From: Astropecten irregularis
Taxonomy: Eukaryota; Echinodermata; Asteroidea; Paxillosida; Astropectinidae
Assembly: GCA_963971285.1 (NCBI GenBank)
Contig: OZ020252.1
Coordinates: forward strand, 9,213,662 to 9,277,661
Reading direction: 5' to 3'
DNA length: 64,000 nucleotides
A program made the position numbers and the translations under genes. The notes below the pieces were generated by a model. That model was not told the DNA's origin. It ran no database searches and saw nothing but the letters and a program-made list of their open reading frames with translations. This document shows positions 3,163-51,648 of the stretch, piece after piece; the stretch's first letter is position 1; the number at the start of each line of letters is the position of its first letter.

Positions 3163-6044
3163 CACCACTGATTCCTTAAACCTTGGGCATTGGATCAATG
3201 GTCCTTTTGCACCTTTTCGAATAACCTTGCTAGGATGGTGGTCATCATTTGCATTGACTCCAATTCCGGACAATGTTAATACTTTCCGCTATAAGTAAAA
3301 CAAAAAACACGTTTTGCGTCCTATCTTTTTGAAAAAAAAAAGGCTGGGCGCACAGGCTAGGAAATGGCTAAAAAGGTATTTAGCTTTTATTTTTATCGGG
3401 ACAGCTGTACAAATCATTTTTCCCTGAAAAAATTATGAAATTTACACCTTTTTCTAAAAAATAAACAACAACGGGCGGCTTCCCAAAAGGAAGCGGGCGG
3501 GGACCTTAAACATGTTTCTATATTTAGTTGGCCTAATATGAAGTGCCATCTCTGTGATTAAAGTTCTTATTACAATGTCACAGCCAAAATCAACTGTCTC
3601 TTTATAAGATCACCAGACAGCAGGTGACTATAATCCAAGTGGTCCTCCATGATTGGTCCAAGTGCCAGTGGTCCAAGCATGGTCCAAAGAATCTATGCCT
3701 TACGTTACAATCCCAGTGCCTTATGAAATAAGTTGGTTCAGCATTAACTGCTGGCATTTGTATCTACATGGTACCATGACGTCGGGCACCTGCGAAGCTA
3801 AGTTAATTGGTTAAGGGATTTTGTTTTATTCATCGTGCAGTGCATATTGGCGCGGTTTATGTTACACGTCTTATCCCGTCTGCTGGCGGGATGCTATGAA
3901 GTAGAATCCTGATCACGCATAAACGAGCGATCATCATCATCATCATCACGGCGGGTACCAAGCTATAGAGAGTGTGACTCTGGTAGCCGTGCTGTGGAGC
4001 GTCTGGACGGCCGACTCCCCAGGGATGACCTACACACACCAGGTGAAATTTCACAACACGCGGCGTGAATACCAATATCAATCAATACGTTCCGGCTCAT
4101 CTTTTTCCTCCGCTGATGGGTCTCTAATTGTCGCTCCCTTCGCGTGCTGCGTTACCGCCTACGTACACGACTTCTCTCCTTCTTGGACACGGGGCCTGGC
4201 CTGGCCAGGTCGATTAAACGCCCGAGTATTTTGATCGCTCGCGCCGGTCAGCTCCGAAGGAATCCCCGTGTGACTGTGATCTTTACGGGCAGACCGTAAT
4301 TCTCCCTCCGTATATAATGTCACGTATTGGTGTAACTATCAATTTTTTTGGTTTATGAGCGGAAAACTACACGGGGGCACGTGACAGAAATCTTGACAAG
4401 AAATTGATGTCAGTTTAATTGGTTCCCGAGTGATGGGAACAGGTGTTGGTTGTCGTAGATTCACAGAAACACGTTTGCTTGTTTTTTAGTATCCGTAGAG
4501 ACATAATTATATCGCCTATCTTTTTATAGCCTCGATGAATATGATGCCTAATAGCCTGCTTGTTCTGTGCACAGGGAGTTGGGGGCTGGAAACAGTGTCA
4601 GTGTTTGACGCAATACGATACAACAATAACATCTTATAGCCCGTTGATGTTTGTTTTTTCGATGCAATATCCAGTTGTGTTCAAGTTGTGATGAGATTCG
4701 ATCAACTTTTTTGAAAAGAAAAAGCAAAACGGTGACCGATTTCAGAAGAGACCAAACCAATCCAAATAAACAGTGTCAGCGAAACATAAAACGAGTTAGC
4801 CATTTCGGATTGGCGAAGTAATTTACACCATATGAGATTGAAATAGATTTCTCTACACAGCATAAATTGACCAATACTATGAATTATTCATACAGGATAA
4901 TGATCTTTAATCAATACAATTTCGGTCTCGCATCTATTTTCCTCATTTCCTTCCGGATGTTTCACGCATGAATAATCAAGCCAGTTAGTTAAAAGCATGG
5001 CTATTACGTCAGCGTGACGTCATCGAGTGATTTAAAGCAAAAACCAAAAAAAATATGATGTAAATGGCCCTCGATTCTTTGATCGATCGCGGCCCGTTGG
5101 ACCGGCTCCAATCACGGTAGGTCTTCACAGTGACTGCCATGATAACAGTATAAAGGGTGATCGGATATCCCCTACGGGGGAACTTGCATCCGAACGTGGA
5201 CGGAATTCCTAACCGGGGAACAACTCCACGGGCCAGCAGCCCTTATACGCTTTCAGCTTTTGGGCGTTTGTCGTAAGCGGATCGCATTGTTTGCCGAGAA
5301 AATGTTATGGATTTTTTCTTTTCATATACCAAATGTCGGCGTGAATTGAACTTTCTCGAGATACATGATCCCGGTAGCGAGACAGCGTAAAAAGCAAATA
5401 GAGTTCGGATTCACGATACCATGACGCCAACTATACTGATCTAATGTCGCCATCCGTTGGCATAGGGTTAGAACATGGAAGGGGGGTATTCATACGTAGA
5501 TCTGACTAATGATGATACGAGCATGGTCACTCAGGATCAATAATACACCAAAATGTCATACACACTAACCTCTACATTTACTTCTAAATTTACATAACAT
5601 GTTTAACTCTCTGCAAGGCTTATACTCGGCAACACTCCAGGTCACCCATGCATGTAGAACAAGAGTGAAATATTTCTTTGCCTCTAGGCTTTCCTTGATC
5701 ATTCTCGTGGATTTTTTTTAATCTCGACGAAGATATTTCAAGAAGTATTAAACATGACCTCTTAATGCAAATGTCAGAAGGATTCTTTTCCTCTTTCACC
5801 TTTTTGTTTAAAAACAGTAATCAGTAACAGACTAGGGCTAAACCCTCATATATTTCGCTCTTTGATCAACCAGGATGCCTGCCATTCAGTGTTTGAGTAC
5901 CATTCATGGTGATGTTGTATTGTGTGTATACTCTGTGATAACCACAATAATCTTAATTTAAGGCCTTATTTTATATTATACAGTGTAGTACCAATGATAC
6001 AAAATGAAGTTAGCAAATGGAAAGAAACATTTATTTTACTTAAT
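3163..6044. other. No gene; CpG-rich patch at about 3840-4320 and CRE-like sites at 5007-5021
   Basis: The 3840-4320 patch is richer in CG dinucleotides than its surroundings and could be a promoter for a transcript I cannot see. TTACGTCAGCGTGACGTCA near 5007 holds two CRE-like motifs. The open frames at 3974-4234 and 4548-4760 show no protein family signature. Confidence 0.35.
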
Positions 6045-6588
<544 letters not shown>

Positions 6589-19954: not shown

Positions 19955-20499
19955 GGTGAAATCACGCGCAAAGTAATGTTCACGAGGACACCTCCATTTG
20001 TTTAAATTGGGCCCGCGAGTCCTATTAAACCATCACATTTACTCATGATGATATAATCACGACACTAATTGCTGAAGAGGTTTGTCAACAATCTCGTTGG
20101 GACCTCAACAGCAACCTTGTAATACAATGACTTAGTGGCCATTATTTCTCTGGTCAGCCGGAAATATATTGGAGTGTTATGTGGGGCGGTGGGTTGGACG
20201 GGATGTGAAAAGGTTCAGGATGGTTTATAGTTCGGTAAGTTAGTAAACGATCGCCCAGCAGACATAAAATATTGCAGACCAATAATGGATGGAGGGTTTA
20301 TTTCAACCATGATTTGGACCCATTTGGGTTGTTCGGTTTTTTTTTCGCATGGGTTCTCGAAATTGAGACTATAAATCGAAAATACCCATCATCTCCGCAT
20401 TCCACGCGTGGCGGAAAGTCGACCGGGTAATATTGGCAGTTCAGGGGGTTCTGGTCTGCCTCACGAACTCAGACCAGGCCAGTCGGCACGGTCGCCACC

Positions 20500-21410
20500 C
20501 TGCCGCACGCAGCCCGGTCCCCATCCTGCCACACCCGACCCGGTCCCCAACCTGCCGCACCCTGCCCAGTCCTTACTGGTCCCCAACCTGCCGCACCCGA
20601 TCCGGTCCCATCCTTCCGCACCCTACCTTGTCCCCAACCTGCCGCACCCTGCCCATTCCTCCACCTGCCGCACCCTGCCCATTCCTCACCGGTCCCCAAC
20701 CTGCCGCACTCAACCCACTCCCCAACCTGCAACACCCGACCCTGGGTCTCCAACCTATCGCACCATACCCGGTCTCAAACCTGCCGCACCCGACCCGGTC
20801 CCAACCTGACGAACCCTACCCGGTCCCCAACCTACCGCACCCTACCCGGTCTCCAACCTGCCGCACCCTACCCAGTCCCCAACCTACCGCACCCTACCTT
20901 GTCCCCAACCTGCCGCACCCTGCCCATTCCTCAACCTGCCGCACCCTGCCCATTCCTCACCGGTCCCCAACCTGCCGCACCCAGCCCACTCCCCAACCTG
21001 CCGCACCCTACCTTGTCCCCAACCTGCAACGCCCGACCCCGGGTCTCCAACCTATCGCACCCTACCCGGTCTCCAACCTGCCGCACCCGACCCGGTCCCA
21101 ACCTGACGAACCCTACCCAGTCCCCAACCTGCCGCACCCGACCCAGTCTCCAACCTACCGCACTCTACCCAGTCCCCAACCTACCGCACCCTGCCCAGTC
21201 TCCAACCTGCCGCACCCTGCCCGGTCCCCAACCTGCCGCACCCTACCCGGTCCCCAACCTACCGCACCCGACCCAGTCCCCAACCTACCGCACCCGACCC
21301 GGTCCCCAACCTACCGCACCCGACCCGGTCCCCAACCTACCGCACCCTGCCCAGTCTCCAACCTGCCGCACCCTGCCCGGTCCCCAACCTGCCGCACCTA
21401 ACCCGACCCG
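20500..21410. repeat. 25-bp minisatellite (CCGCACCCTACCCGGTCCCCAACCT type)
   Basis: More than 35 tandem units of about 25 bp, varying between ACCCGACCCGGT and ACCCTGCCCAGT, with some short units. Because the period is not a multiple of three, it yields open frames with LPHPTRSP-type residues in all three forward frames. Confidence 0.95.
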
Positions 21411-22618
21411 TCACTCATTTCCTCCCTCCATATCTTGCCGTAATAATCTCTCCAATCTAGAACTGTAAGACAGAGCGCTACATTAAACAAACAAACAATG
21501 CTTCACCTTGCAAATGGCAAACATGAAGTCCAGTAAATAATCATTTTGAGTGAAACTCCAAATAATTCTGGAGAACGCAACAAAAAGTGAAAAAGCACTT
21601 TTCAGTTTATTACGATAAAAGAGAACTTGTATTCATATTACACTCATCCAATAAGCAATCATTTTAAACGTGTCATCTCACGAACAGAAATCCATCAATT
21701 AAGGGCTTCAAGGGTCAATGATTCCAAAATTAATTGCTTATTAAGAAACCAGTAATATTTTATTATTGTCCAAGACCTCCTCATCATCATCATGTTTTCC
21801 CTTCTGGCCTGTATACGTGCTCTGTCTTTGGGCGTGACTCTCAACAGGATCGAACATCTAGAAGTCATTCCAGCTTCGTTCCATTCATCATTATTCTCCT
21901 CGCTTGCACCCGATCCACAAAGCAGTTCGAATCCGCTCAAATCATAATTTTGCCATGTAAGACCACTTTCACCTTAAATTCAGAGACCCGATGAAAGTAG
22001 ATGGATAACTTTCGCGAATAAATTAAGAGAAAAATAGGAATCCATAGTCCTACACTCAAAATTCAAATTATTAAAGAAAGACCTCATGTTTATATTGTGC
22101 ACAAATTCGGTTGCAGCTTTCCAGGAGAATAAGACTAAATATGTAAGCAGATCGCCGATTTGTTTTGTTCAAATCCTGGGCATGTTAATGAAAGACAATT
22201 AATTCTGTCCTCCTCAAAACCGTATACGTCTTAGGGCTTTTGGGGGCTTTCAGACTTTCATGAAAAACAGATTGCAGATCTTACATTTGATTGAAATGCG
22301 ATCCTTTACCTGTTTAAGCGCTATTTAAAAGGTCATTCACTTTAGTCTCGGGCCTGGGTCCTTCTCAATTACCCGTTAAATTTTCCAGATTGATTTCATC
22401 ACGGCATACCATTGGCATCAGGACTTGGAAATGATAGCTATCAGGCCTCGGCAGTCAGAGAAAAAAGTCTATATTTTGGTCCATATTTGAATTTCAACCA
22501 TTTTCCATTTTGCGTTAAAAAAAACGGGTTTTGTCTTTGCAATTCATTTGTTATTTTGTCTACAAGTTCCTAGTCAGATCAAGCGTTGTGTTTACGCTGA
22601 GTAATAATTATTTGAGTT
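21411..22618. other. No gene seen
   Basis: Short open frames at 21695-21994 on both strands have no family signature. Confidence 0.45.
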
Positions 22619-36502: not shown

Positions 36503-36876
36503 TTCAAGGTATAAATACATGATTGGTAAAGATCACAGAACAACACTCACAATTTGTCTGATCGAACATGTACATAGAATAATAAACCTGTGAAGATTTG
36601 AACTGAAGCAGACATCTAATAAGTCACGTGAAAATAGCGAAAACCCGACTCAATTTTTCTTATGAAACATGAAGAGTGATTTTGATCTTACCCCGAGATC
36701 AAAACTGTTTTCTGTCTTTGTTTGACTAATTTCTGCACAAATACACAATTTCAGCTCAGGCGGAACCATTTTAACGGTTTGTTTCTACCAGCACCATCTT
36801 CATACCCTGAAAGTTATATGTAAATATGTGAACATGTCTGTTTGGGTATGTTACCAATTCTGTACTGTATATTTAA
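36503..36876 (-). mobile_element. Family B MITE just downstream of exon 10
   Basis: AAATACATGATTGGTAAAG to CAATTCTGTACTGTATATTTAA. Its outer end lies about 20 bp from the exon 10 donor, and the alternative stop codon at 36873 falls inside it. Confidence 0.82.
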
Positions 36877-36895
36877 ACATCGAGTATTGTCTTAC

Positions 36896-37076
36896 TGTAT
36901 TCATGATCGCGGCGTCCCGTGGCGCCCTCATTGTGAAGCCATGCTCGCAGCTTGGGATTTTGGAACTCCTCCAAACGGACAAAGTTGTGAAGAGGCCCGA
37001 CGACAGAGGGCGGTGTGCTGGCCGATGTTTCTTCGCTGCTCTCCCCGTTGTTGTCTGAACTTGGGCGGGAAGTCTT
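36896..37076 (-). CDS. Exon 10: Cys-free C-terminal region, possibly last or penultimate exon
   Basis: The acceptor CACAAAATACAG is in phase 0 with exon 9. It encodes 60 residues beginning KTSRPSSDNNGESSEETS and continuing to FVRLEEFQNPKLRAWL, with no Cys. The end is ambiguous: ATACA before GTAAGAC is a fair donor, but reading on gives SKTILDV and a TAA at 36873, just inside a B-family MITE. I see no clear AATAAA downstream or a convincing next exon. Confidence 0.62.
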
Positions 37077-40000
37077 CTGTATTTTGTGAATATTCAAAAC
37101 GAGAATGAGTTTAGAGAGCGGTTGAAAAATCTGTGTCATCTTTGGAAAGGTTTATCTCGAGCTAGTTTAAGAGAGAGGGTGCATTCGATTCCAGCAGAAT
37201 TCTAGGTGTCGATTACCATTAATTTTCTTGATCGGATAATACAATTTCCAATTTATAACACCATTATTTTTGTGCTTGGAGTTAGGAGGGCCTGACCCGA
37301 TTCAATCCTAGCAGGATCTTTCTGCTTGGAGTTAGGAGGGCCTGACCCGATTCGATCCTAGCAGTATCTTCTTGCTTGGAGTTAGGAGGGCCTGACCGGA
37401 TTCGATCCTAGTAGGATCTTTCTACTTGGAGTTAGGAGGGCCTGACCCGATTCGATCCTAGTAGGATCTTTCTGCTTGGAGTTAAGAGGGCCTGACCCGA
37501 TTCGATCCTAGCAGGATCTTTTTGCTTGGAGTTAGGAGGGCCTGACCCGTTTCGATCCTAGCAGGATCTTTCTACTTGGAGTTAGGAGGGCCTGACTCGA
37601 TTCGATCCTAGCAGTATCTTCTTGCTTGGAGTTAGGAGGGCCTGACCCGATTCGATCCTAGCAGGATCTTTCTGATTGGAGTTAGGAGGGCCTGACCCAA
37701 TTCGATCCTAGCATGATCTTTTTGCTTGGAGTTAGGAGGGCCTGGCCCGTTTCGATCCTAGCAGGAACTTTATCGAAGGCTAAAGATGATTTTGTTTTCA
37801 TTTCAGGTCGGCGATAATGCGTAAAACCGAACAACTATTTTAGAACTTACAAAATTCCAAACAATATATTTTTCCAAAATAATTTACGCAGTTTGTAACC
37901 TACCTCTTGAAAATCACGAGACGGTATGGGTGGCTCGTTATTCACGCATCTGTATCGTTCTTCGTCCGTGACGTCACAGCAGGTTGGAGGAAACGGAAGA
38001 CGGCGTCTTGCGATTCCACGGTTCCTAAACGTGGCAGATAAAACGTAATTCACGGATTAAGCAAAAAGAAACAATTTCATTTTCACGCATTCGTGTTGAC
38101 GTGATTTTTACCTCCTCGGTTGAAACCGTCACTGAATTTCACTTCGAGGCTTCCGTATTTACATAGCATTGCATTCAATAAAAATTCAACAGTCGTTAAG
38201 TTTTAGCCATTCAAAATCGGCATTCAATTTAGCACGCTGCCAAAAGTTGCTGCGAATTGGATTCTGTTCGAATTGAATTTTAAATTGAAAGGCAGATTCT
38301 TTGTATACGCTGGACGCTTGTGAACATTTGCTTGCAATTGCACATGAAGTGACATTGATTGGCTATTTTGAGGTGTCTTGCAGTTTCACGCGAAATGGAA
38401 TGACGCAGCGTTTAAATTGTTCGCTCATTTGCCGGAAATGACCGGGAAAACATGTAGTTGAATTCAGATTTCTGATTCTGTTGCATACGTTGAAAACTTT
38501 CCTTATCATAGGCCTAGAAAGGAACTTTGGTAGTACAGTGGTTCTTCTTCTCGGATCACAATTCACGTCCAATGAAGGGTACAAGATCTGGCTTCGGGTG
38601 TTGAAAGACTCCAGATCTTTGGCAGTGCATGGCTCTGGTAGGAGGGGCAGACCAAAAGGTGTTGCATCGTCTCCATCCCTATTGTATCCCCTATATTACA
38701 GTGGTGAACGGCACGGCATGAGTATCGTGTGGGGGCAGCCTAGTACATGTATTACCTTCCAAAACTTCTAGTCGCGTCACATCTTCGGTCGGCAAGACTG
38801 CCCCTTATTCTCCGTACACAGCGGCTGCGTTCCACCTCATCTACCATCACGCAACAGTCACGGAGCATCTCGGTCAGCGATTCGTGATCACGGTCAAGCT
38901 CCGGCATCCGTAATTCCCCATCGTGCTCTGCGAAGGGTGGTAAAATCAAATAAACATGCATTGAAACTTAAATACATAAATGGGTGAGAAATTAATGGAA
39001 TTGAAGTTGGGCTGACTCCATTTTCCTTCGAGGCTGAAATTTTAGATTTGATCGAGATTTTGATTAGGCCAGGGGCTAATTTTGTGGAGCTGCTTAGCAC
39101 AAATGAAATTGCTAAGCACAGAAATAGCTTGCCCAATTAAACAAACCTCCATTAAAAATTCCATATGATATTCATGGTCAGTGAACAACAGCCAAAGAAC
39201 AATCGCAAGTGATACACAACACACGGCCATTTGGTTGATAATCCTGTTTTTACTATTGACAGAAATGTCATGCTTAGCGATTTTTTGTGTTAAGCAGCTC
39301 TGATGAAATTGGCCCCAGGAGGCTACTGCAGCATCAAATCGCCCCGTTTAATACCGTTGTTAGCTAGGAGTACTTAGAGTTCACACACCAGCACTGTGAC
39401 CTCAAATGCCACATGCCGATTTGATTTCGCTGTTTCGGGATTTAGACCATGGATTTCTTTATAATCAGTGACAAGCCGGTTTTTTTTTCTTTTTCGAAGG
39501 TCGAATTTTGCTACACAGTCACATCTGCACACATAATGCCTCCGTGCCATCGTGCCTATAACGCGTATGGGTGCGTCTGTAAACATGTTTGGGAATAACA
39601 TGAACTGTGATACGTGGAACTGCAATGACTGTATGCGACGGTTTGACATCAACCTTACCTTCTTGCTCGGTGTCGTCCCTGTATGCACCGAATGCTCCCA
39701 CGGCTGCCCGGTCTAGGATCTTCAGACACATGCCGTTGACGTGGCCGTCTCTCCAAATGCCTCTGAATCGTCCACGCCCTCGTCCTCGTCCATTCCTTGC
39801 GGTGGCAGTATCTTCAGACGAATCCACCTGGTCTGAATCTGAATCACTGGATCCCGTGGACACCTTCGACGCCCACCAACCGGCGTTTCTCCTCTGGCGG
39901 TTCGCTCCGTCTTCGAGCTCTCCTTCCCCGTCTTCTTCCCCGTCCAACTGCTCCAGGTCCGTACCCTCCTGTGTCTCAGTTCCCTCTGCTATCTGGTCTT

Positions 40001-43000
40001 CCTCTTGAGATTCTTCTTCTAGTACCTCATCGTCCTCATCTTTGTAGAAGCAAACGGTCCTGTTCTTTCCCTCTAGCGGACAACAGGCGTCGAGCTTCTC
40101 GGCCACCAAAGTGAAGTTCCCCTGATCATATTCATCAGTGCCCATATCGCAGAGTCTCTCGAGTAAAGCAGTTTGCACGACCCACAGACACTTAGCAAAC
40201 TTCCACCCCTCATATTCACAACAAGTGGCTAGATTCTCAATCACAGCAGACGAATCATTGAAAGGTTTGAGATTCCAGGATGAAGCCTCGGAAGTGTCAT
40301 TCTTCGGTCCCTTCTTCCAATGTCCATGCTTTTTCCCTCCAGTTTCTCCTTGGGGTCTTCCGTCGGGGTCTTGACGCCCTGGATGTTTACCTTTCTTCAT
40401 TCCGCCAAGTCTACCTTGATGACCGGAGCCTTCCTGTCTCTTTTTTGGATGATGGGGACTGGCGTGGCTACCTTTTTCTGGCCTGTCCTCGTTATTACCG
40501 CCTCCCTGTCTTCTCGGCGGACGAGCCAAGCCTCCGTCTCCTTTGCGCTCTTTTCCGCCTCGTCCTTGCGGGTGTTTCTTTCCACCAGGACGGGCCGGTC
40601 TACTTTGCTGTTCTCCTCCTTCTGCATCTTCACGTTCGGCATCCTCCCTTCTCGTCTCTTCGCGTTCACTCTCTTCGTTCTCGCTGTTTTGAGATCTCTT
40701 GCCTGGTTGACCCTTTCTCGGACCTTGAACGTTAGGCCGTTTCATCCCCTTCTTATCCCCGTCTCGCTCTTGTGTTTTCCCCCGACCACCTTTGCCTTGC
40801 TTGCCCTGGCTTTTGTCTGGACCGTCTTCCGTTGCGGTCGTCTCCGTTGTGTTCTCCGTCGATTCTTGTGAATCCACCCGTCCCGTCTTCTTCTTCCCGT
40901 GCTTTCGCATACCGTGTTTTTCACCGTGCTCTTCTTCTTCTTCCGATTCTTTACTAGAATTGACCTTAGTGACAGATGATTTTGCAGCCCGCAAGATCCC
41001 CAACAACTCGATCATACTGCCTTCTTGGAATTCATCGATGCGGTCGCATGTCTTCTTTCTTGCGATGGTGATGTACTTTTTTGTCTTGCCTGGCATAGGA
41101 AGATGCTTTTGATGGTGCTTCTTCTTGCCAGGTTTTTCGCCGTCGTCTTCAGCCTCATCGACCTCTCTGTCCTCTGGATCCATCGCCAAGACGCATCTGT
41201 ATTTCTCTCGCCCTTCTAGCTGACAGCAGGCATGATCGGGTTCCAGGAAGTCACCTTCAAGATCGGTTGATACCTCTCCCAAATGTCCAATCTGATAGGC
41301 TACGTGGACATCCCGTCCAGAGCATACTTTGTCTGTGTAAGCCCGGAAGACCTGAAGCAAACACAGGTACCTTTCATCTCCCTCGCTCTGACAGCATTTG
41401 TGGACCGCGTGTCTTCCCTTGATATCTTTTTTTTTAAGCCCGTCGAAGCTGGTGCATAAAAGTTCCATCCTCCTCAGCTCCTGTTGTCCTCGGGTGTTAT
41501 TCTTGAGGTTCTCAAGCCGGGCGAGCAATGGTGGCCGATATTCGAGTAGCTTCTCACTGGTGCTCAGCATCTTCTTGAAACAGCACGATCTTTCCTCCAT
41601 GTCTTCCTCCCTGCAGCACGGGTTGTCAGCTCCAACAGTGCCACCAAGACGCTGCGCAAATGGAGTGGCTTCCCCTCTGCACACTGCCTCGTACTTCTCA
41701 TCTTTGACGGATTGCAGACACTTTCTTCGGCGAATCGGCCCCTTGAAGACGCAGCACTTCATCATGCGGCTTCGTTTGGTTTCTACCTCGCTGTCGATCC
41801 CGTTACCATTTTTGCACAGCCGATTGAGGATGCGTAACTCATGTCGGGTTCTTCTCTCGCTAGCTCTTTCGTCTGCGCGACGGCAGTAACCCCTCTGACC
41901 GTGCGCATTCTCCTCCTGCGCAGTGTATGCCGTTGACTCAAACAGCTCACGTCCACTCTGCTGTTCTGGTTCGCTGTCTCCTGATATTTCTAGAATAACC
42001 TGATCTGCCGGAGGCTGCATCCCTTCACTCGAACTGTCTTCTCCACCAAGTGTGGCGTGCAAAATCATCCGGAGATAGCTTCGTATCCGACGGGAATACA
42101 CTTTGGAAGTGCTACTGAGGAAGCACCGATAACGTTTTTCGTCAGTGTCCTCACAGCAATCGCCACTTCGTTTGAACGCAGTCTGCAGTCTGGAAGCGCG
42201 AGGTCTGCCCATTCCATCGCCACTTTGACAGAGTCCATCTAATCGGTCTCGCAAGACTGTACCCATGCACTCGAAACGATCGTACACTTCCAGTTCACAG
42301 CAACCCTTCAGACTCTTATCGTCACTGCCACCAGCCTCGCAAAGCCGGTCGGTCGTGCCCTCTCGTTCGACCAGTTTCAGTACCATGTTCACCTTCAATG
42401 TCTCCTGGCGATGCCGCTCGAAGCAGAAAAAGCGAGACTCTCCTTCTGACGAACAGCAGGAATGCGCCACAGATGGATCGTCTCGACGAACCCATTGAGG
42501 ACCAAGAGGCCGGACGAACACCGGAGCCGGTATCACACCATCGCAAAACTTATTCAGCGTCTGGAATTTGACAGCGTGGAAGCAGAAGGCTCTTCTGTTT
42601 GGGTTTTGGATGCTGCAACATCTGCCTGCTGCTGCTGTTGTTGTTGTTGTAGAAGATCCTGGTGTTGAGGGTCTTGTATCAAAAGCTCGGCACACGATGC
42701 CCATGCGCTTAACTAGCAGATCGCGTGGTGAGATTATCTTGGCCAAACACTTGCGGAGGTCCTTGATTGTTCCTGCATTTTGAAGAGATATTAAAGGTAT
42801 AATAATTGTTAACGGTCACAAAACAGCGCTCACACTTTGTCTGATCCAACTTGTACATGAATGGAATAATAAGCCTGTGAACATTTGAGCTCAATCGGAC
42901 ATCAGTTCTGAGTTCCGAGAAAATAACGAAATTGTTTCTTATAAAACAATTATGAATGATTTCTTTTCTTCCAAGATCAGAAATGTTTCGGGTGTTTAGT

Positions 43001-46000
43001 GACACTCTTTCTGGATAAATACAGCATTTCAGGCAGAATTATTTTAAAAGTATGTTTCTACCAGCACCACCTTCATACCTCACGTAAATCTGTGAACATT
43101 TCTGTTGGGGTATGTCACTGTTCCTTTAAACTTTGATTAAACAATTGAAGAAATGCATTGACTGTGGAGTTTTCCAAGGAACAAATTTATACTTCATGTA
43201 AACTTTCAGATTTAGGTGAAGATTTAGGTGTCTTTTCTAATTTTCAAAACTTCCTGGCAGAATCAGTTAATTCTGTCAAGTACCTAAATGCTTATTTTCA
43301 ATGACACTTATCAATCCCCGTCTTCTATTCTGAGACCATGGAACCATGGAAACGCCAGTGGGCGCCATAGCTATACTACTAGTGGAAGTGTCCCAACTTG
43401 CAAGAAACGCTTGCCGCATACTCAATAGAATGGAATCACCTTAAAGGTAATATCATACTTTGGTTTTTGTCAAAGAAATACAGATTCATGGACAAAATAT
43501 CAAAACAGAGCCAGTAACAGTCATCTGTGAAAATTTCAGACCCACACGGTTCCCACTTTTTGAGAAAACAGTGAAAACAGCCTCAGTATTTCTTAAGTCT
43601 TTTCAACCATCACCATCTTTATACCCTGTAAGTTATAGGTAAATCTGCGAAGATTTGTATTTCAGTATGCTACCAAAGTATGATACTAACCTTAATTATG
43701 ATATCGGGTTTAAGAAAAAGGAAAGTCATCTGCAGAAAGCTTTGCATCTTAAAGTATTTGCCGAATTTGTAACAGCGATCTAGCACCCGGATATGTTGAG
43801 AAACAGAATATTGAGGTATAATACTGTACAAAATGCTTTTCCCACTGATTTACCGCTTCCCAATTTAAACATTTTGGCATTTTGTCAAACTCAAAAACGA
43901 ATTTGCCTGCCAAGTGCCAACGAAATGAAAAATTCCGTTGTTGATGACTGGCAAGATAAACATTTTGTTAATTTGTTTTAAATTCTATTGAACATTTTGC
44001 TTACGACGTAAGTTTAATTGAGTATCATACATCGATTATCATTATGGGAAGGGGAGTTGAAAACTAAATACATGTAAGTCTGATTCGATGCCACAATTTG
44101 CAATTTAACCTGTGTAAAACAAAAAAAGAAGAAGTCATCTTCCATCGGTGTACATAGACACTATATTGTGAAATAGCACCGTTGAGGGCGCACTGCCAAA
44201 GCCTCGTAGAAATAAATCTTTACCGAAAAAAAAAACCCAGCGCGAATACTGTCAGGAAAATGACTTGTATTTACGACTCTGACTTGTCCTTAGTTATAGC
44301 CCCCTCTGTAGTTTGACCAACGGCTCTTAGAAAATACTCACTTTTCCTTGAGCAGCAGAAATTCCATCGGCGACGTAACAAGGGATCTGACTCGGTCTCG
44401 CGATTCGCGTAGAATTCACGGCATAATTTACTGGGATAGTCGACCTCGGGATTCATGTCTGAGAAATCCACATCTTCCTCTTCCTCAGTTTCGTCCTCTT
44501 CCTCAGATTCTTCCTCATCAGAATCGACATCTTCAATAAAAAACAAATGATATTCAAAAACATTTCACTATCATAACGCCAGAAATTAATTTTGTCGACA
44601 AACTGCGCATGCGGAAAGATGCGCAGTTTGTCAACAAATATTGGCCAACGCGTTGCAAACTCATGGTGGCGCACTATTGTGAATCGTCCGTTTTACAGTA
44701 ACACACTAAACCTAGATACGTGTATGAAGTTAGCGTTCATATTATTGCTTCGGAACTTAAAGAGTGAAATTCGACAAGGAGACGAAATTACGTTTGGTTT
44801 TGTTTCCCCAAATTTCCTTACGGTTAAATGATGCGCATAGCACACATCGACTGATTGACAGTATTAGTGTCCAACATGTTTCATCATAATGCTTATAATT
44901 TGTAATTTTCCCTTACAAGGAAATAGTGAACCATGTATATGCAGCGCTTAAGGATTTACCCCCTTCCAACCATATATTGCTGCAACATTCTGGATGGTAC
45001 AAGTCCCTTTTGTGGTCAGGCGATGCACGTGCCTTTAGTTTGCTAGCAAAGTGTTAAACCCCCAAAACTTACATGTGTAATTATCCTCCACACCAACTGC
45101 ATTACCATCACCGTCAATATGGTCCTCCGTGACGTCACTGGTCTCGGGTTCGAGTTCATTCACGAGAGCTGGGTTCATTTAACAAAGGGGATAGAAATAT
45201 GCACACAGGAAAGATAATTATATACTGTATCATTTTATGACGTTTAACGAGCCCTTGGGTACCAGGTGGTTTGGAGTGGTGTTGTATGTGAGTAATTTGC
45301 ACCATTAGATGTCAACATCTCATTAATCTGTAACTCCACCAGGGTCACCATGGCGACATTGATGTGTCATGTCCCGTGGTGTGACGTCATATTACGTCAT
45401 ACCACCCTAAGTTGACCTGCCACTGCACATGCGTGACTGAGGACACTAATAGCCTCAACAATTATTGGTAGATAAAAAGGTCGTCGTATGACTTTCCCGC
45501 CCAGCATCTTGTAGCGATCGATTCTCCAAATCAAGGCCTTTGACGCAAAATGGCGCGAAACCTGTGAGGTGTGTTGTTAAACCCCCTCCCCCTACCACCA
45601 ACCCTCCCCCGTTGTCATGCCACCTGTTCCGGCTTTCGCCCACGTCACGCCCCAGACGACCTATGATTGTGACCCCATACACACACTCACTGTTCAAGTA
45701 TCCATCCAGTGCCACTGTGTTGGGACACACCGTCAGTTGGAGGCTTGTTGAGGACTGCAAGGCGAAGATGTTGTCCGTGGACTCGAAGACTCTAGCTCTA
45801 GAAATGAACCAAAATTATAAGATTTGTTACCCTCGGGTTTGTGTTCTTCTTTAAACTATAAACCTTCTATCGTTCGATGAAAGGTACATGTGCTTTCATA
45901 CTTTGGTAGCGTACCAAAACAAAAATCTTCACAGATTTACCTATAACTTACAGGGTATAAAGACGGTGATGGTAGAAATATACCGTCAACAGTTTTATGC

Positions 46001-49000
46001 TTGGAAGAATGTATTTATCTAGACAAGAAAAGAGTAAAAACCATTGACCACAAAGTATTTTGATCTTCGGAAGATCAAAAGTAACAGTGAAATGGTTTGA
46101 GGAATACTGCGGACGTTTTTCACTTCATTTCTCAAAAAAGTGGGTACCGTATGTGACTCAGGGAATTTCACTGAAGACTAGTAATGTATCTTTCTTGGTA
46201 ATCATGTTTGCTCGTGAATCTGTATTTCTTTGACCAAAACTTAATTACGATCATGTTACCTTTAAACAATAATCTTTCAATCGTTCAATTAAATCTGCCC
46301 CAATATCGGACTAATAATAAGAGGAGAAAAAATGATTAGCATATGTAAGTTCCATATTCTGCTTCTTACTTAAATGCGATGCAGCCACACGATGGAGTCT
46401 GAAGCCTAAGAGGCACCTTCATCGTCCTCAATGACCCGTCTGACACCCAGACTCCCGGACAGTCCTCTAGGGCACTCACTCCCTCCAATTCAGGCACCAG
46501 GTTCACATCCTCGCAGGTCTCGTCGGAATTCTCGGCCGTTATGAGAAATCGCGAGATCGGACGAAACTGATCCCTCGCTTTGACCATCACTGTTGTTGTT
46601 ATTTTCAGAGAAAGGGAAAAAACACCACAAATATTATCGGGGGTAATAATTACGTATTAGGCAAGTGTGGAAATCGACAACATCGATCTTTGTACACAGC
46701 CACAAAAGAACCCCTCAAATAATAAGCTAAATATTTGATGACTGTAATTAGGTTTGGTAAACATAGTATATGTTGACGTTTCTTGTCACTAGCTGGCTGC
46801 CTTTCGAAGATGCAATGTGAATTATACATTCTGACGCACATGTTGTTTTCTTAAGAGTCGCAATGGGATCATCTCATATTCCTCTCCACAACATTGGGGA
46901 GAAATTAGGCATTAAAGATTCGAAGTTGTAAACTTCTTGTTGAAGAAAGCCCTTGTCCTCAATTCATAAAGATGGCAAAATGGGGCTGAATGGGACAGAA
47001 TAGACCTCAATATTCACGGTGCATCCATCCTACAATCGAAGCAGTGCATGCAATCAATGGGCATTTAGGAAACGGAGGCTCAGGCTCCGTCTCAGGCTCC
47101 TGCTCCATTTTGTGAATCCATTCTGAAATAACTGACTAGTATCTAAATACAGGCTTTTGGCTGCGGTTCTGAAGTATATTCTCTGGTTTGAAAAGGAAAA
47201 CAGAGTTTCAGCTTCAGTGAAAACCCATAACCTATATTTCCAGCATATGGATGTCAGAGCTGGAGCCTGAGCCCGAGCCTCCTTGAACGCCCAATTATTA
47301 AAGGGTTCATGCAGTGCTTTTTTCAGTGAGGTTATTGTATTGCCTTCATACAGAGAATATACTGACAGATAATGAATGGCAAGTCTTATTTTGGTTTCAA
47401 ACCAGCATTTGTTTTTCCTTGGAATGGCTTTGTAAAACGGGGGGTTTTCACGCATACTCATGTAGGGAACCAACAGCAACTTTATAATGACAAAAAAAAA
47501 CATAAAAAATGAAGAGGCAAACATGACCTACAGTAATGGTTTGGTAAAAAAATTACACCACCAGTTGAGTGAAAGGAACATATTTGGCAAAATAAAACCC
47601 ATTGAGGAGGAAAAGGTCTGTCAGAAAACCTATAAAACAACCGCAACTTTTTGTGCACAAATCAATACACGGGTTTACACCATTGCGGCCATCTTAGATT
47701 TTGATCGCAACTTCAAAACGAGGCACTTCCACGCATGCGCACTTTTCGAAGTGTAAACCCGTGTATTGGGTTACTGCTCTCAGTTCCCCAGATGACATCA
47801 CAGTTTTGCTCATGAATATGGAAAAAAACCTGTTCTTAACCCTGAATCAGTGTGAGGAAGTGAGTAAAATCACAGTCCCCATGTACAGCTTTTTTATTGG
47901 CACATGTTCAAGCCATAATATTCACATTGCAGAGACCATTTAAACCGAAGCTTGGGTTCAAAATAGTCTGGTACCCGTCTTCTTTTTATAATTGGTGTTA
48001 TCTTTTTCAACGGAAGACCAACTAGAATTCAAATGTTCCTTTGGACTAGCTCTCTGGTTTACTGTAATGGTGTTTGAGAGGGTTATAGTTCAACTTCATG
48101 CTACATTCGAAGGAGAGGTTCAATTTGACTGACCGGCAAAACCAATAATATGTCAACTTACAATCGTAATGCAGGTTTGGAAGGTAGCCATACTGCGTAT
48201 CACTGAGGACCAGACTGAATGGTGCCTCATTGGTGATGCCATTGCTCAAACCATTTGTCTCAATGTCACGGTCTTCGAACTTCGGGCAGCTTTCCAATGA
48301 CCCGCCTGAAACAGCAAACAGACAACTTTAAATCAGCCAATATGCAAAAATAGAAAGCGCAGACTATCAACTGGTGTAGTGAAATGACAGAACGAGTTGA
48401 AGAAATGAGTTGGTGTTAGTATACATGTATATAACTTTTACTCTCAGTGCAAGCGAAGCCATGACAAGTCAATTCAAATCCATTCCAGCCCAGCCCAGCC
48501 AAGGCCAACCCAGGCCAGCCCAGTACAGCCCAGTCCAGCCCAGGCCAAACCCAGGCCAGCCCAGTCCAGCCCAGCCCAGCCAAGTCCAGGCCAGGCCAGC
48601 CCAGTCCAGCCCAGACCAGCCAAGTCCAGTCCAGGCCAACCCAGGCCAGCCCAGGCCAGGCCAACCCAGGCCAGTCTAGGCCAGTCCAGGCCAGGCCAGC
48701 CCAGTCCAGTGCATGCCAACTCAGGCCAGCCCAGCCCAGCCCAGGCCAGGCCAGCCAAGTCCAGTCCAGGCCAACCCAGGCCAGGCCAGGCCAGGCCAGG
48801 CCAGGCCAGCCCAGTCCAGTCAAGCCCAGTCCAGCCCAGATCAGCCTAGCCAAGTCCAGGCCAGGCCAGGCCAGGCCAGCCCAGACCAGCCAAGTCCAGT
48901 CCAGGCCAACCCAGGCCAACCAAGGCCAGCCCAGGCCAGCCCAGGCCAGCCCAGGCCAACCCAGGCCAACCCAGACCAGCCAAGTCCAGTTCAGGCCAAC

Positions 49001-51648
49001 CCAGGCCAGCCCAGGCCAGGCCAACCCAGGCCAACCCAGTCCAGGCCAGGCCAGCGCAGTCCAGTGCATGCAAACTCAGGCCAGCCCAGCCCAGGCCAGC
49101 CTAGCCAAGTCCAACCCAGGCCAACCCAGGCCAACCCAGTCCAGGCCAGGCCAGCGCAGTCCAGTGCATGCAAACTCAGGCCAGCCCAGCCCAGGCCAGC
49201 CCAGCCAAGTCCAGTCCAACCCATGCCAACCCAGTCTATTTTCCGAATGGAATAAATCGCCCAGAAGCGTTTTATTCATTCGTTGGAATGTGTAAACGGG
49301 TTTTCACTATTTTCTCGTGCCCCAAACTTCTACAGGTTTGTCAGTTAAGGTATATGATGGATTACATAATGTGCTTTCACTGTCAGCAACGGTTTTGTCG
49401 CAAAAACCAGTTCTGTACCATCCCTTTAAGGCAACAAAACCAAGCAAACAGAACAGCAGTTATCAAGTGCGAATTACGTAAACTCTAAATAAAATAAGAT
49501 AACTCAATACACACAATGCGTTTAATCTCTAAATCGATCATAGATTTCTTTTCGACTTGTTTTTCTTACCAACTCTAACAGCACCCATTAATTCGATTGC
49601 TCGAGTAACTGCCCTTAGTAGTTACATTACATTGGTATCATTTGCGTCACGTGGACACATAGGTTACAAATTGATCAGTAATAATGCATTGTGACAAAAT
49701 GTCATCGCGATGGCAGACAAGGACTTTATTCTATGTGCTTTCACAATCACGTATGCTCAATCACGTATGCTACAATTGCATGATTTATAGGCTTGTTGTA
49801 TGGATGGCTAGCTTTAATAATTATAAGTCATCACTATCAGACTTAAGAAATACTGTGGTTGTTTGTCACTGTTTTCTCAAAAAGTGGGCACCGTATGGGA
49901 CTGACAGTTTCACAGATGACTGTCACTGTATCTGTTTTGATATTTTTTGGCCCATGAATCTGTATTTCTTTGACAAAAACCAAAGTATGATATTACAAAA
50001 AACTAGATTAAACAGGGACTCTGTCTTTTTGTCACACTACATTAGTGACTCATCATTACCTTTTGTCTAGACCACAGACTGAGCCCTCATATACCTTGCT
50101 TGATGATGCCACTTCGTTGCATCTGATAAGGTAGTCGTTGCTACGAAAGCTTATACACATTTTAATTCTAGTTAGTCAATAAAGTGCTATTTGTATTTTT
50201 CTATTTTATATTACCTTTAAGGTAATAAATGCATACTGTAAATCAAGTCTACTCATTCTCTGTAACATCATGATGTGCCGACCATTGTGTATACTGCAGG
50301 GAATGGTGTCATGTAGGATACCATTCCTTTAACCAATAGACGATATAATAAAATCGTTCAAACCTGGAGTTTTTGTGTCGGTAAGAATGTGTACGATTGG
50401 TAGAAAGTGATTGAACTGAACCTATTATTGCAAAGTATTGAATGAGCCCATAATACGATTGATAATGGTCCCTCTCCACATATTGTTCAGTTTTTGTTTG
50501 ACCTCTACTGTTTTGTATTTATATCAAACTTCTTATACCTTCTTTCTAACGCATCGGCCGATATCCATTTACATGAATCGCAAGTTTATAAAAACAGGAT
50601 TCGTTACACGCTGTTTTCTTATAGAAACGTGATGACTTATGTAATATGTTTGCTGAAATGTTCACCGCTTAGGAATAAAGATATGCTGTTGAAAACAGGT
50701 TGTTTGGAACGAGCGCGCGCCCTCCCCCAAAAAAGCAACATGGCTTATAATGTACCGTACCTTCTAGGATGTAAGTTAATATTTTTATTTTTTTTATATA
50801 GTAAAATTCCTCATTATTCAATTGATTCTTATACATGTACTTCGATTAATCTGACTGAAAGGTATTCATTTGGCAAAATACACAGAAACACGATCGTAAC
50901 TTCGCCTTCCGATCTTTGTGAAGACTATTAGTTCCCTATCGTAATGTGCATTATATCATAAAACAAGATATATTTGCATGTAAACACATAAAAAATATAC
51001 TTATGGCGTCTAGGTAGCCGTGTTTTTTAGTCAAAATAGTATTGAAAACGTAGGTATAGCACTTAAAGACTAATTGAGGATATTGTGGAAATTGATCCTT
51101 TCAGTTTAACCAATGTACTAGAGCTTTCATTATACATGCTGATGACGTTTCACTTCATTGCATCCTATATGAAGTAGATGTTAAAGGTAGTATCATACTT
51201 TGGTTTTTGTCAAAGAAATACAGATTCATGGGCGAAAATATCAAGGAAGATACAGTAACAGTAATCTGTGAACATTTCAGTCCCGTACGGTGCCCATGTT
51301 TTGAGAAAACAGTGAAAAACGGCCTTTTAAGTCTTTTCTCTTTTATGTTTGATCTTTTAAAAGATAAAAAAGATTTCCGGTCGTTGTTTTACCAATTTCT
51401 GGATAAATACAGCATTTCAGGCAGAAAAATTGTAACGGTATGTTTCTACCATCACCATCTTGACACCCTGTAAGTTATAGGTAAATCTGTGAAGATTTCT
51501 CTTTCGGTATGCTGCCAAAGTATGATATAACCTTTAAGTTATACCTATACATTTATTCATTAATTCATTAATTCATTGACTTACCACGGTATGACGACAC
51601 GGATTGGATGATCAACAGACTCAGGATGGTGACTCTGATTAGCGCCAT
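36896..51648 (-). CDS. Secreted Reeler-domain protein with thirteen ECM1-like CC-x9-11-C repeats (10 coding exons, 3' end unresolved)
   Basis: Joining 51648-51585, 48305-48162, 46589-46370, 45797-45691, 45168-45073, 44530-44342, 42772-39659, 38927-38756, 38024-37904 and 37076-36896 gives one uninterrupted frame of about 1,469 codons, each border GT-AG with compatible phase (intron phases 1,1,2,1,1,1,1,2,0,1). Residues 1-20 are a signal peptide. Residues 30-170 match the Reeler domain (FSL start, YxPxxxY, FRxxxRFLITA, DCPGVWVSD, SCGCIAFKA, closing LTVCP). Residues 179-245 are acidic. CC-x9-11-C motifs start at residues 269, 325, 379, 431, 479, 613, 659, 733, 789, 1124, 1170, 1336 and 1384, most preceded about 20-25 residues upstream by a lone Cys, as in ECM1 and albumin-fold proteins. 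Residues 811-1112 are a basic low-complexity linker; RQRR near 1232 is a possible furin site. Family knowledge suggests an extracellular matrix role; the exact function is unknown. It may extend beyond 36896. Confidence 0.85.
37274..37773. repeat. 50-bp satellite, ten tandem copies, in intron 9
   Basis: The units repeat every 50 bp exactly (GCTTGGAGTTAGGAGGGCCT, then GACCCGATTCGATCC, then TAGCAGGATCTTTCT). Differences are single bases. GATCCTAGCAGGATC is almost palindromic. Single diverged copies occur at 53.7 kb and, inverted, at 62.6 kb. Confidence 0.95.
37904..38024 (-). CDS. Exon 9: thirteenth CC motif
   Basis: Acceptor TTATCTGCCACGTTTAG, donor CAAGAG before GTAGGTT (phase 0). It encodes FPPTCCDVTDEERYRC. 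When spliced from exon 8 the spacing from DRRC to this CC pair is 22 residues, the same as in the LCQSGDG repeat of exon 7, which supports the junction. Confidence 0.85.
38363..38513 (-). other. In-frame open segment in intron 8, possible alternative terminal exon
   Basis: An acceptor-like TTCCTTTCTAG precedes a frame compatible with exon 8 (phase 2) that runs 50 codons to a TAG. It includes three Cys (FNVCNRI, TTCFPGH, FKRC) but lacks a CC pair, and no internal GT would restore the frame of exon 9. It could only be an alternative last exon or a chance open frame. Confidence 0.2.
38756..38927 (-). CDS. Exon 8: twelfth CC motif
   Basis: Acceptor TTTTACCACCCTTCGCAG, donor GGAAG before GTAATAC (phase 2). 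It encodes LTEMLRDCCVMVDEVERSRC followed by DRRCDATRS. The lone Cys of exon 7 (GMCLKILDR) and this CC pair form one repeat split by intron 7; the DRRC Cys opens the next repeat. Confidence 0.85.
39071..39317. mobile_element. Family D element in intron 7
   Basis: GGGGCTAATTTTGTGGAGCTG to GATGAAATTGGCCCC; the GTTGATAATCCTGTTTTTA block confirms the family. Confidence 0.78.
39659..42772 (-). CDS. Exon 7: 3,114-nt exon with ten complete CC-x9-10-C motifs and a basic linker
   Basis: The acceptor is TCTTCAAAATGCAG and the donor GAAG before GTAAGG. The exon encodes about 1,038 residues. CC motifs include CCSIQNPNRRAFC, CCSSEGESRFFC, CCELEVYDRFEC, CCEDTDEKRYRC, CCVFKGPIRRRKC, CCREEDMEERSC, CCQSEGDERYLC, CCQLEGREKYRC, CCEYEGWKFAKC and CCPLEGKNRTVC. 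Between the eighth and ninth of these lies a hydrophilic linker of about 300 residues rich in Lys, Gly, His, Arg, Glu, Gln and Pro. Possible N-glycosylation sites include NNT, NSS, NTT, NDT, NDS, NFT and NRT. An RQRR dibasic site sits near 39,890, followed by a Ser/Asp-rich run and an RGRGRGR stretch. The antisense strand shows long spurious open frames across this GC-richer exon. Confidence 0.93.
42791..43129 (-). mobile_element. Family B MITE ending 18 bp from the exon 7 acceptor
   Basis: TTAAAGGTATAATAATTG to GTTCCTTTAA, with B-type blocks (CTGATCCAACTTGTACATG, TTTCTGGATAAATACAGC, TACCAGCACCACCTTCATACC). On the gene strand its TTAA end lies directly before ATCTCTTCAAAATGCAG. Confidence 0.82.
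43441..43695 (-). mobile_element. Family A MITE in intron 6, internally deleted
   Basis: TTAAAGGTAATATCATACTTTGG to AAAGTATGATACTAACCTTAA. It jumps from TATTTCTTAAGTCTTTTC to ACCATCACCATC, losing the palindromic centre. Confidence 0.82.
44342..44530 (-). CDS. Exon 6: acidic stretch and first CC motif
   Basis: Acceptor TTTTTTATTGAAG, donor AAAA before GTGAGT. The first half is almost wholly acidic (runs of Glu and Asp), the second half starts the ECM1-like array: SKLCREFYAN, then RRWNFCCSRK at the exon end. The intron therefore splits the first CC-x11-C motif, and the partner Cys (LRKC) lies at the start of exon 7. Confidence 0.85.
44591..44639. repeat. 49-bp hairpin in intron 5
   Basis: TTTGTCGACAAACTGCGCAT and GATGCGCAGTTTGTCAACAAA form a stem with a short loop (GCGGAAA). 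It lies about 60 bp upstream of the exon 6 acceptor. Confidence 0.8.
45073..45168 (-). CDS. Exon 5: acidic linker
   Basis: Acceptor GAACCCAG, donor ACAT before GTAAGT. It encodes 32 residues without Cys that are rich in Glu and Asp (ELEPETSDVTEDHIDGDG). It joins the Reeler domain to the cysteine repeats and is probably unstructured. The pyrimidine tract upstream is weak, but both phases fit the neighbours. Confidence 0.72.
45384..45402. promoter_or_regulatory. Two adjacent CRE-like motifs in intron 4
   Basis: TGACGTCATATTACGTCA carries a full palindromic CRE and a half-matching second one. Such sites bind CREB/ATF-type factors in animals; use here is unproven. Confidence 0.25.
45691..45797 (-). 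CDS. Exon 4: end of Reeler domain
   Basis: The acceptor TTCATTTCTAG gives phase 2 to 2 joining, restoring Lys. It encodes KARVFESTDNIFALQ and ends in SLQLTVCPNT, matching the last strand and terminal Cys of Reeler domains. The exon stops at AACA before GTGAGTGT. Confidence 0.83.
45877..46265 (+). mobile_element. Family A MITE in intron 3, diverged
   Basis: AAAGGTACATGTGCTTTCATAC, GGGTATAAAGACGGTGATGG and GATCTTCGGAAGATCAAAAG (altered centre), ending TGTTACCTTTAA. Confidence 0.8.
46370..46589 (-). CDS. Exon 3: core of Reeler domain
   Basis: A pyrimidine tract (TTTTCCCTTTCTCT) and AACAACAG acceptor precede TGATGGTC; the joint restores a Leu codon. It encodes the Reeler core: QFRPISRFLITAENS (the FRGFLL-A strand), a Cys in DETCED, DCPGVWVSD (the CP-x-AVTH region) and SCGCIAF (the GCV-F-A strand). 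Cys spacing and strand order fit the spondin-1 Reeler domain. The donor is TTTAA before GTAAGAA, leaving phase 2. Confidence 0.87.
47071..47285. mobile_element. Family E element in intron 2
   Basis: AACGGAGGCTCAGGCTCCG at the left and GGAGCCTGAGCCCGAGCCTCC at the right around the E core; directly followed by a family F element. Confidence 0.8.
47298..47943 (-). mobile_element. Family F element in intron 2, with nested insertion
   Basis: TTAAAGGGTTCATGCAGTG to GCAGAGACCATTTAA, reverse to the copies at 8.6 and 54.5 kb. A 98-bp element splits it at 47667-47764. Confidence 0.82.
47667..47764. mobile_element. 98-bp MITE nested in family F
   Basis: Ends ACACGGGTTTACAC and GTGTAAACCCGTGT are perfect inverted repeats. 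The flanks CAAT and ATTG rejoin to CAATTG, the sequence present in the empty site near 8820, giving an AT target duplication. Confidence 0.8.
48162..48305 (-). CDS. Exon 2: start of Reeler domain
   Basis: The acceptor TTTGCTGTTTCAG precedes GCGGGTCATTGG. The phase-1 joint with exon 1 restores a Gly codon. It encodes about 48 residues with one Cys (LESCPKFED) and the Reeler opening APFSLVLSD followed by a YGYLPNLHY segment, which corresponds to the YxPGxxY signature of spondin and reelin N-terminal domains. The donor is GATT before GTAAGTT, leaving phase 1. Confidence 0.85.
48484..49240. repeat. CCAGCCCAGG-type minisatellite in intron 1
   Basis: About 757 bp of degenerate 5- and 10-bp units (CCAGCCCAGG, CCAGTCCAGG, CCAACCCAGG). 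A higher-order repeat contains GTGCATGCAAACTCAGGCC at 49064 and 49164, with a related GTGCATGCCAACTCAGG at 48709. Open frames on both strands follow from the repeat. Confidence 0.95.
49841..50222 (+). mobile_element. Family A MITE fragment in intron 1, split by a retroelement tail
   Basis: CTTAAGAAATACTGTGG to AAAGTATGATATTAC is the right half of family A. Its last bases, ATATTACCTTTAA, reappear at 50208-50220 after a 210-bp insertion. Confidence 0.8.
49997..50208 (+). mobile_element. Penelope-like or LINE-like 3' tail inserted in family A MITE
   Basis: GCTTGATGATGCCACTTCG, ACGAAAGCTTATACAC and AGTCAATAAAGTGCTATTTG resemble the 3' tail of GIY-YIG Penelope-like elements, in which AATAAAG-type ends are common. 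The repeated ATATTAC at both sides looks like a target duplication. Confidence 0.55.
51181..51537 (-). mobile_element. Family A TTAA MITE about 45 bp downstream of exon 1
   Basis: TTAAAGGTAGTATCATACTTTGG to AAAGTATGATATAACC plus TTTAA, with GATCTTTTAAAAGAT at the centre. It lies in intron 1, close to the first donor. Confidence 0.87.
51585..51648 (-). CDS. Exon 1: start codon and signal peptide
   Basis: The ATG at 51648 sits in a favourable context (ACAATGG, A at -3 and G at +4). It encodes MALIRVTILSLLIIQSVSSY, a typical secretory leader with a hydrophobic core and small residues (SVSS) at the likely cleavage point. The exon ends CGTG before GTAAGTC, a strong donor, leaving one base (phase 1). 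The sequence just upstream has no clear TATA box or CpG cluster that I would call a promoter. Confidence 0.82.

Follow-up and report, generated by a model that had tools for sequence, protein, structure and literature searches.

Gene structure

The question raised by this locus is whether one gene joins a Reeler-type domain to a long array of paired cysteines in a single secreted protein, and to which family each of these parts belongs. The window, i.e. the whole stretch of 64,000 nucleotides that we analysed, corresponds to C16:9213662-9277661 of an assembly of 475.7 Mb in 168 contigs. In our best reading, to which we assign a probability of roughly 0.6, it carries a gene, detected at one place in the genome, for a large, putatively secreted matrix protein of ~1470 residues with a signal peptide, a diverged Reeler domain, an acidic linker and an albumin-type array. 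The preliminary description had proposed a Reeler domain and an ECM1-like cysteine array in one secreted protein; the union of the two parts is retained as the best reading, while the family labels are revised to diverged Reeler and albumin-type.

The gene lies on the minus strand, from 51648 to 36896, and was resolved into ten exons whose AG/GT borders and phases all agreed without adjustment (Table 1), in line with the exon chain described earlier. Two 3' ends are possible for exon 10, either a TAA ending at 36873 or a phase-1 donor at 36896 that splices on; the protein has 1469 full codons up to this last donor and 1476 residues if exon 10 reaches the TAA. By codon usage, the predicted frame scored best in nine of the ten exons, each time exceeding 95% of 2000 random 150-mers, with exon 7 being scored against its own training set because codon usage was trained on it. 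Exon 1 was neither best in the predicted frame nor above that level. It was, however, the sole candidate for a signal-peptide exon on the minus strand between 55.0 and 42.8 kb (criteria: ATG, a Kyte-Doolittle mean over 9 residues > 2.2 and a phase-1 GT[AG]AG donor). Six-frame protein searches of the genome with the array returned two places, both in this gene. With exons 8-10 they returned five, of which four were again this gene and the fifth was a weak match on contig C8 (E 0.3). Overall, the gene model is well supported and the original observation is sound apart from its family labels.

Table 1 Exons of the predicted gene and albumin-type modules of its cysteine array (positions in the window; CC pairs in residues of the spliced protein).
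Feature	Position	Strand	Description
Exon 1	51585..51648	-	64 nt, ATG and predicted signal peptide (MALIRVTILSLLIIQSVSSYR); GT donor, phase 1
Exon 2	48162..48305	-	Diverged Reeler-type domain (best reading), first part
Exon 3	46370..46589	-	Diverged Reeler-type domain (best reading), core
Exon 4	45691..45797	-	Reeler-type domain (best reading), end
Exon 5	45073..45168	-	Acidic linker
Exon 6	44342..44530	-	Glu/Asp-rich linker and first half of CC motif 1
Exon 7	39659..42772	-	3114 nt; CC motif 1 (second half) and motifs 2-11 (modules M1-M5)
Exon 7, continued	39659..42772	-	295-residue Lys/Arg/Gly/His-containing insert and acidic stretch
Exon 8	38756..38927	-	First half of module M6 (motif 12)
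Exon 9	37904..38024	-	Second half of module M6 (motif 13)
Exon 10	36873..37076	-	Ser/Thr/Glu-containing tail
Module M1	42381..42731	-	CC pair 325/379; Serum_albumin E 0.031, ECM1 E 0.023
Module M2	42084..42380	-	CC pair 431/479; Serum_albumin E 0.00012
Module M3	41523..41864	-	CC pair 613/659; Serum_albumin E 0.0083
Module M4	41169..41510	-	CC pair 733/789; Serum_albumin E 0.0075
Module M5	40017..40286	-	CC pair 1124/1170; Serum_albumin E 0.0023
Module M6	exons 8 and 9	-	Motifs 12 and 13; Serum_albumin E 0.022

The cysteine array

The spliced protein has sixty cysteines, and all thirteen CC-x9-11-C motifs counted in the preliminary description were recovered in it (nine with x9, three with x10 and one with x11). 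The first straddles the border of exons 6 and 7; ten others are contained entirely in exon 7, and exons 8 and 9 hold one apiece. The array can be read as six two-motif albumin-type modules (M1-M6, cut by hand) plus one extra CC motif, broken by the 295-residue basic segment. Its repeat unit is CC-x9/10-C-x12-C, followed by 20-31 residues and then CC-x9-C; the first motif is x10 in three of the six modules, and the next cysteine after each of the six paired first motifs stands at exactly +13 (C-x12-C). Compared by cysteine positions with one stretch of serum albumin (CC-x9-C-x12-C-x14-CC-x9-C), the modules had the same C-x12-C spacing, and the array conformed to the albumin scheme CC-x9-C-x12-C-x(n)-CC-x9-C. 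In albumin, one cysteine of a CC pair bridges forward by about ten residues and the other backward to an upstream cysteine. By analogy with this upstream cysteine, a disulfide across the basic insert may link C849 to the CC of M5.

Profile searches pointed to albumin rather than ECM1. All six modules matched Serum_albumin (PF00273; E 0.00012-0.031), all of them below the curated cut-off of 34.4 bits (best score 22.3 bits), and ECM1 (PF05782) was matched by M1 only (14.1 bits, against a cut-off of 25 bits). The extra first motif (66 aa) gave no Pfam match. None of ten shuffles of five modules in which the cysteines were held in place matched Serum_albumin. A profile of the six modules retrieved 35 PDB sequences at E ≤ 10, of which 34 were serum albumins, although these are close kin of one another and thus not 34 independent matches; the best E value was 0.0026, the sole one below 0.01, and most were 0.1 to 1. 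Modules resembled one another beyond the cysteines in 13 of 15 pairs (score reached by <5% of cysteine-held shuffles), but only two of 12 pairwise comparisons with two albumin segments (those of M2 and M5) reached about 1% against such shuffles.

At the level of the whole genome, the PF00273 scan did not list this gene and gave a single chance-like place on contig C15 (E 0.63). The PF05782 scan found no match, which is a weak null result because control genomes were likewise silent. With an alignment of the five exon-7 modules as input, AlphaFold2 gave a middling, all-helical model of M4 (mean pLDDT 64, pTM 0.61) and a poor model of M5 (pLDDT 52). Our best reading of these comparisons is that the array is albumin-type, not specifically ECM1, with modules that each appear to resemble half an albumin domain.

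The N-terminal domain

As a check set beforehand, the claimed Reeler domain was searched with HMMER, and PF02014 gave no match at E ≤ 10 in the spliced residues 1-178 (hmmscan against Pfam; curated cut-off 21 bits), the very outcome that the preliminary description had named as speaking against its own claim. A phmmer search of the same residues against PDB returned two chance matches only (E about 1). The whole genome contains 14 places that match PF02014 at E ≤ 10, ten of them above the cut-off, and none falls in the gene at 36896-51648.

The Reeler genes of the same genome have a fixed exon layout, with intron borders here judged by eye. The first intron is of phase 1 and lies six codons past a conserved proline; its donor fitted in five of five first-part exons (L008, L011-L014; the latter four have PF02014 E values above 1 and were recognised by motif) and its acceptor in seven of seven cores (L001-L007). 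The second intron, of phase 2, follows a hydrophobic-x-F/I motif in all eight donors compared (L001-L006, L009, L010). Exons 2 and 3 of the gene keep both positions and phases (near profile positions 34 and 119): exon 2 ends in a phase-1 intron at the sixth codon after the proline or its equivalent, and exon 3 in a phase-2 intron that immediately follows the F/I. When scored with HMMs built from these Reeler exons, exon 2 had a score that was reached by 5 of 2000 shuffles (1786 scored), while exon 3 was weak (90 of 2000, 1674 scored).

The last 60 residues of the domain (end of exon 3 and exon 4) can be aligned, with 12 identities, to two exons of a gene on this contig that is probably reelin. 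This comparator was chosen because it looked closest; the score was reached by none of 5000 shuffles and by one of 5000 with the cysteines held. We take the comparator to be reelin from its motifs GTGCVNF and LCEE, and it matches PF02014 itself with E 3.2e-8. Given the conserved intron layout and the likeness of the C-terminal half to the probable reelin, the best reading of the N-terminal domain is a strongly diverged, reelin-like Reeler below Pfam detection. The Reeler label of the preliminary description was not confirmed in its original form; the intron layout and the reelin similarity indirectly favour a Reeler in this diverged form. The gene is like the reelin/spondin type in intron positions and phases and, less firmly, in its C-terminal half including cysteines. 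It differs from that type in escaping PF02014 and in its partner domains.

Alternative readings

The chain could combine two adjacent genes, one encoding a Reeler-only protein (exons 1-4) and the other a secreted CC-array protein (exons 5/6-10). An open frame of 119 aa (45458-45814) would indeed let exon 4 continue beyond its donor, with a stop after ~78 residues, but the phases fit across all exons, and within the limits of our criteria no second signal-peptide exon was found on the minus strand from 42.8 to 55 kb, so that a separate array protein would have none there. We consider such a false join distinctly unlikely. That the N-terminal part is some other secreted domain is unlikely too: the lack of a Pfam match and the weak score of exon 3 speak for it, yet two intron positions and phases are in common with the Reeler genes of this genome, and the C-terminal half is reelin-like.

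For the array, an alternative explanation is that the CC-x9-C spacing arose independently and reflects no common ancestry with albumin. Such convergence would agree with Serum_albumin scores that all stay below the cut-off, with the weak pairwise signal outside the cysteines and with a Foldseek search of the middling M4 model, which returned four chance-level matches and no albumin among them. We nevertheless find it rather doubtful, as shuffles with the same cysteines lost the Serum_albumin match found in every module and the module profile drew almost exclusively albumins from PDB. A true ECM1 orthologue, or a specifically ECM1-like array, seems very unlikely. M1 does match PF05782 slightly better than Serum_albumin (E 0.023 vs 0.031), and ECM1 is assigned to the albumin superfamily (PMC6478806), but a single module stands against six for Serum_albumin, and the genome scan with PF05782 was empty, a weak point given the silent controls. 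One protein with a diverged Reeler head and albumin-type modules remains our preferred reading.

Charged segments and proposed function

Between the domains lie strongly charged stretches. Residues 178-246 (the linker of exons 5 and 6) consist of 42% D+E, and the insert at residues 806-1100 is basic (pI 9.6) with 16% Gly and 5% His. The whole predicted protein contains eight N-glycosylation sequons and no RGD. A furin-like RQRR is located at residue 1232 (exon 7), between M5 and M6, and could free the C-terminal module.

The protein would be secreted, and homology suggests that it adopts Reeler and albumin folds with albumin-like disulfides. The Reeler, referred to as an ECM-binding domain in one paper (PMC9365450), might anchor it in the matrix or on cells, and helical modules locked by disulfides would form a stiff, protease-resistant rod. 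The acidic segments could bind calcium and the basic segment polyanions, or these segments could contact neighbouring molecules. We favour a secreted matrix scaffold over a soluble carrier because the modules are half-domain-like and charged spacers lie between them.

Relatives and evolutionary context

The sea-urchin protein Endo16 is secreted, calcium-binding and acidic. According to PMC9856734, which cites Baker 2002, it is of unknown function and was suggested to derive from an ancestral albumin gene. Albumin-related sequence in echinoderms is therefore not wholly new, and the present gene may be a sea-star relative of Endo16. If it is the sea-star Endo16, a known gene of the sea-urchin embryo would become tied to a domain architecture.

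Compared with serum albumin, the gene has the same cysteine scheme and matches the profile weakly, but its modules are tandem and half-domain-like, with five of six in a single 3.1-kb exon; it also has long charged inserts and another domain in front. With ECM1, itself a matrix protein, it has CC-x(n)-C arrays in common, while it differs in matching the ECM1 profile in one module only and below the cut-off. To our knowledge, no ECM1 carries a Reeler. Our literature search found no paper combining a Reeler domain with extracellular matrix protein 1, nor Endo16 with reeler, and a Reeler-type partner of albumin-type modules was not met in the literature searched. The molluscan shell-matrix protein CfSMP1 is similar in pairing a Reeler with a disordered region, but the portion of the paper available makes no mention of albumin-type modules (PMC9365450).

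A bearing of the gene on the origin of ECM1-like proteins is possible. The albumin superfamily is usually treated as a vertebrate family, and the title of the cited Li et al. 2017 study contains 'in vertebrates'. A modular array in an echinoderm would provide an outgroup for the order of events, with a matrix protein first and a plasma carrier later. In a speculative and probably incorrect scenario, the gene represents a founder type among invertebrate deuterostomes: albumin half-domains would have made their first appearance in tandem, within a matrix protein headed by a Reeler. The Reeler would then have been lost and the half-domains fused into full domains, with vertebrate ECM1 and the plasma albumins as descendants. 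PMC6478806 and PMC8835714 assign ECM1 to the albumin superfamily with reference to Li et al. 2017.

Genome setting and side observations

Several repeats were recorded in the window. The last intron of the gene contains a 50-bp minisatellite of about 10 copies (37269-37771), and intron 1 a GC-rich tandem array of 5/10-bp units (48485-49234; CCAGCCCAGG). An element with 'actttggtttttgtcaaagaaatacagattc' occurs in an intron at 43455-43490 and also in an intron of another Reeler gene (L014, just after 1614). A short-unit tandem array at 6043-6515 and a long proline-rich one at 20367-21465 each produce long open frames that look gene-like, yet are repeats.

One contig of the assembly (C168, 16,335 bases) is mitochondrial. 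Aligned to human COX1, its COX1 had AAA at Asn in four of four cases and TGA at Trp in nine of ten; AGA stood at Ser (3), Ala (2) and Gly (1), and ATA at Ile (4), Val (3) and Leu, Met and Thr (1 each). The mitochondrial code is of the echinoderm type, which flatworms also use. The large rRNA and frames read as ND2 and ND1 are on the minus strand of this contig and COX1 is on the plus strand, an inversion that we take to be the sea-star gene order; the genome is thus probably that of a sea star. Two further COX1 sequences were seen elsewhere in the assembly. The stretch at C25:9951047-9952018 contains seven TGA codons, lies deep in a long contig and probably represents mitochondrial DNA copied into the nuclear genome (L022), and the open frame of 552 aa at C131:32162-33484 (L020), which is without TGA, probably belongs to a bacterial contaminant contig.
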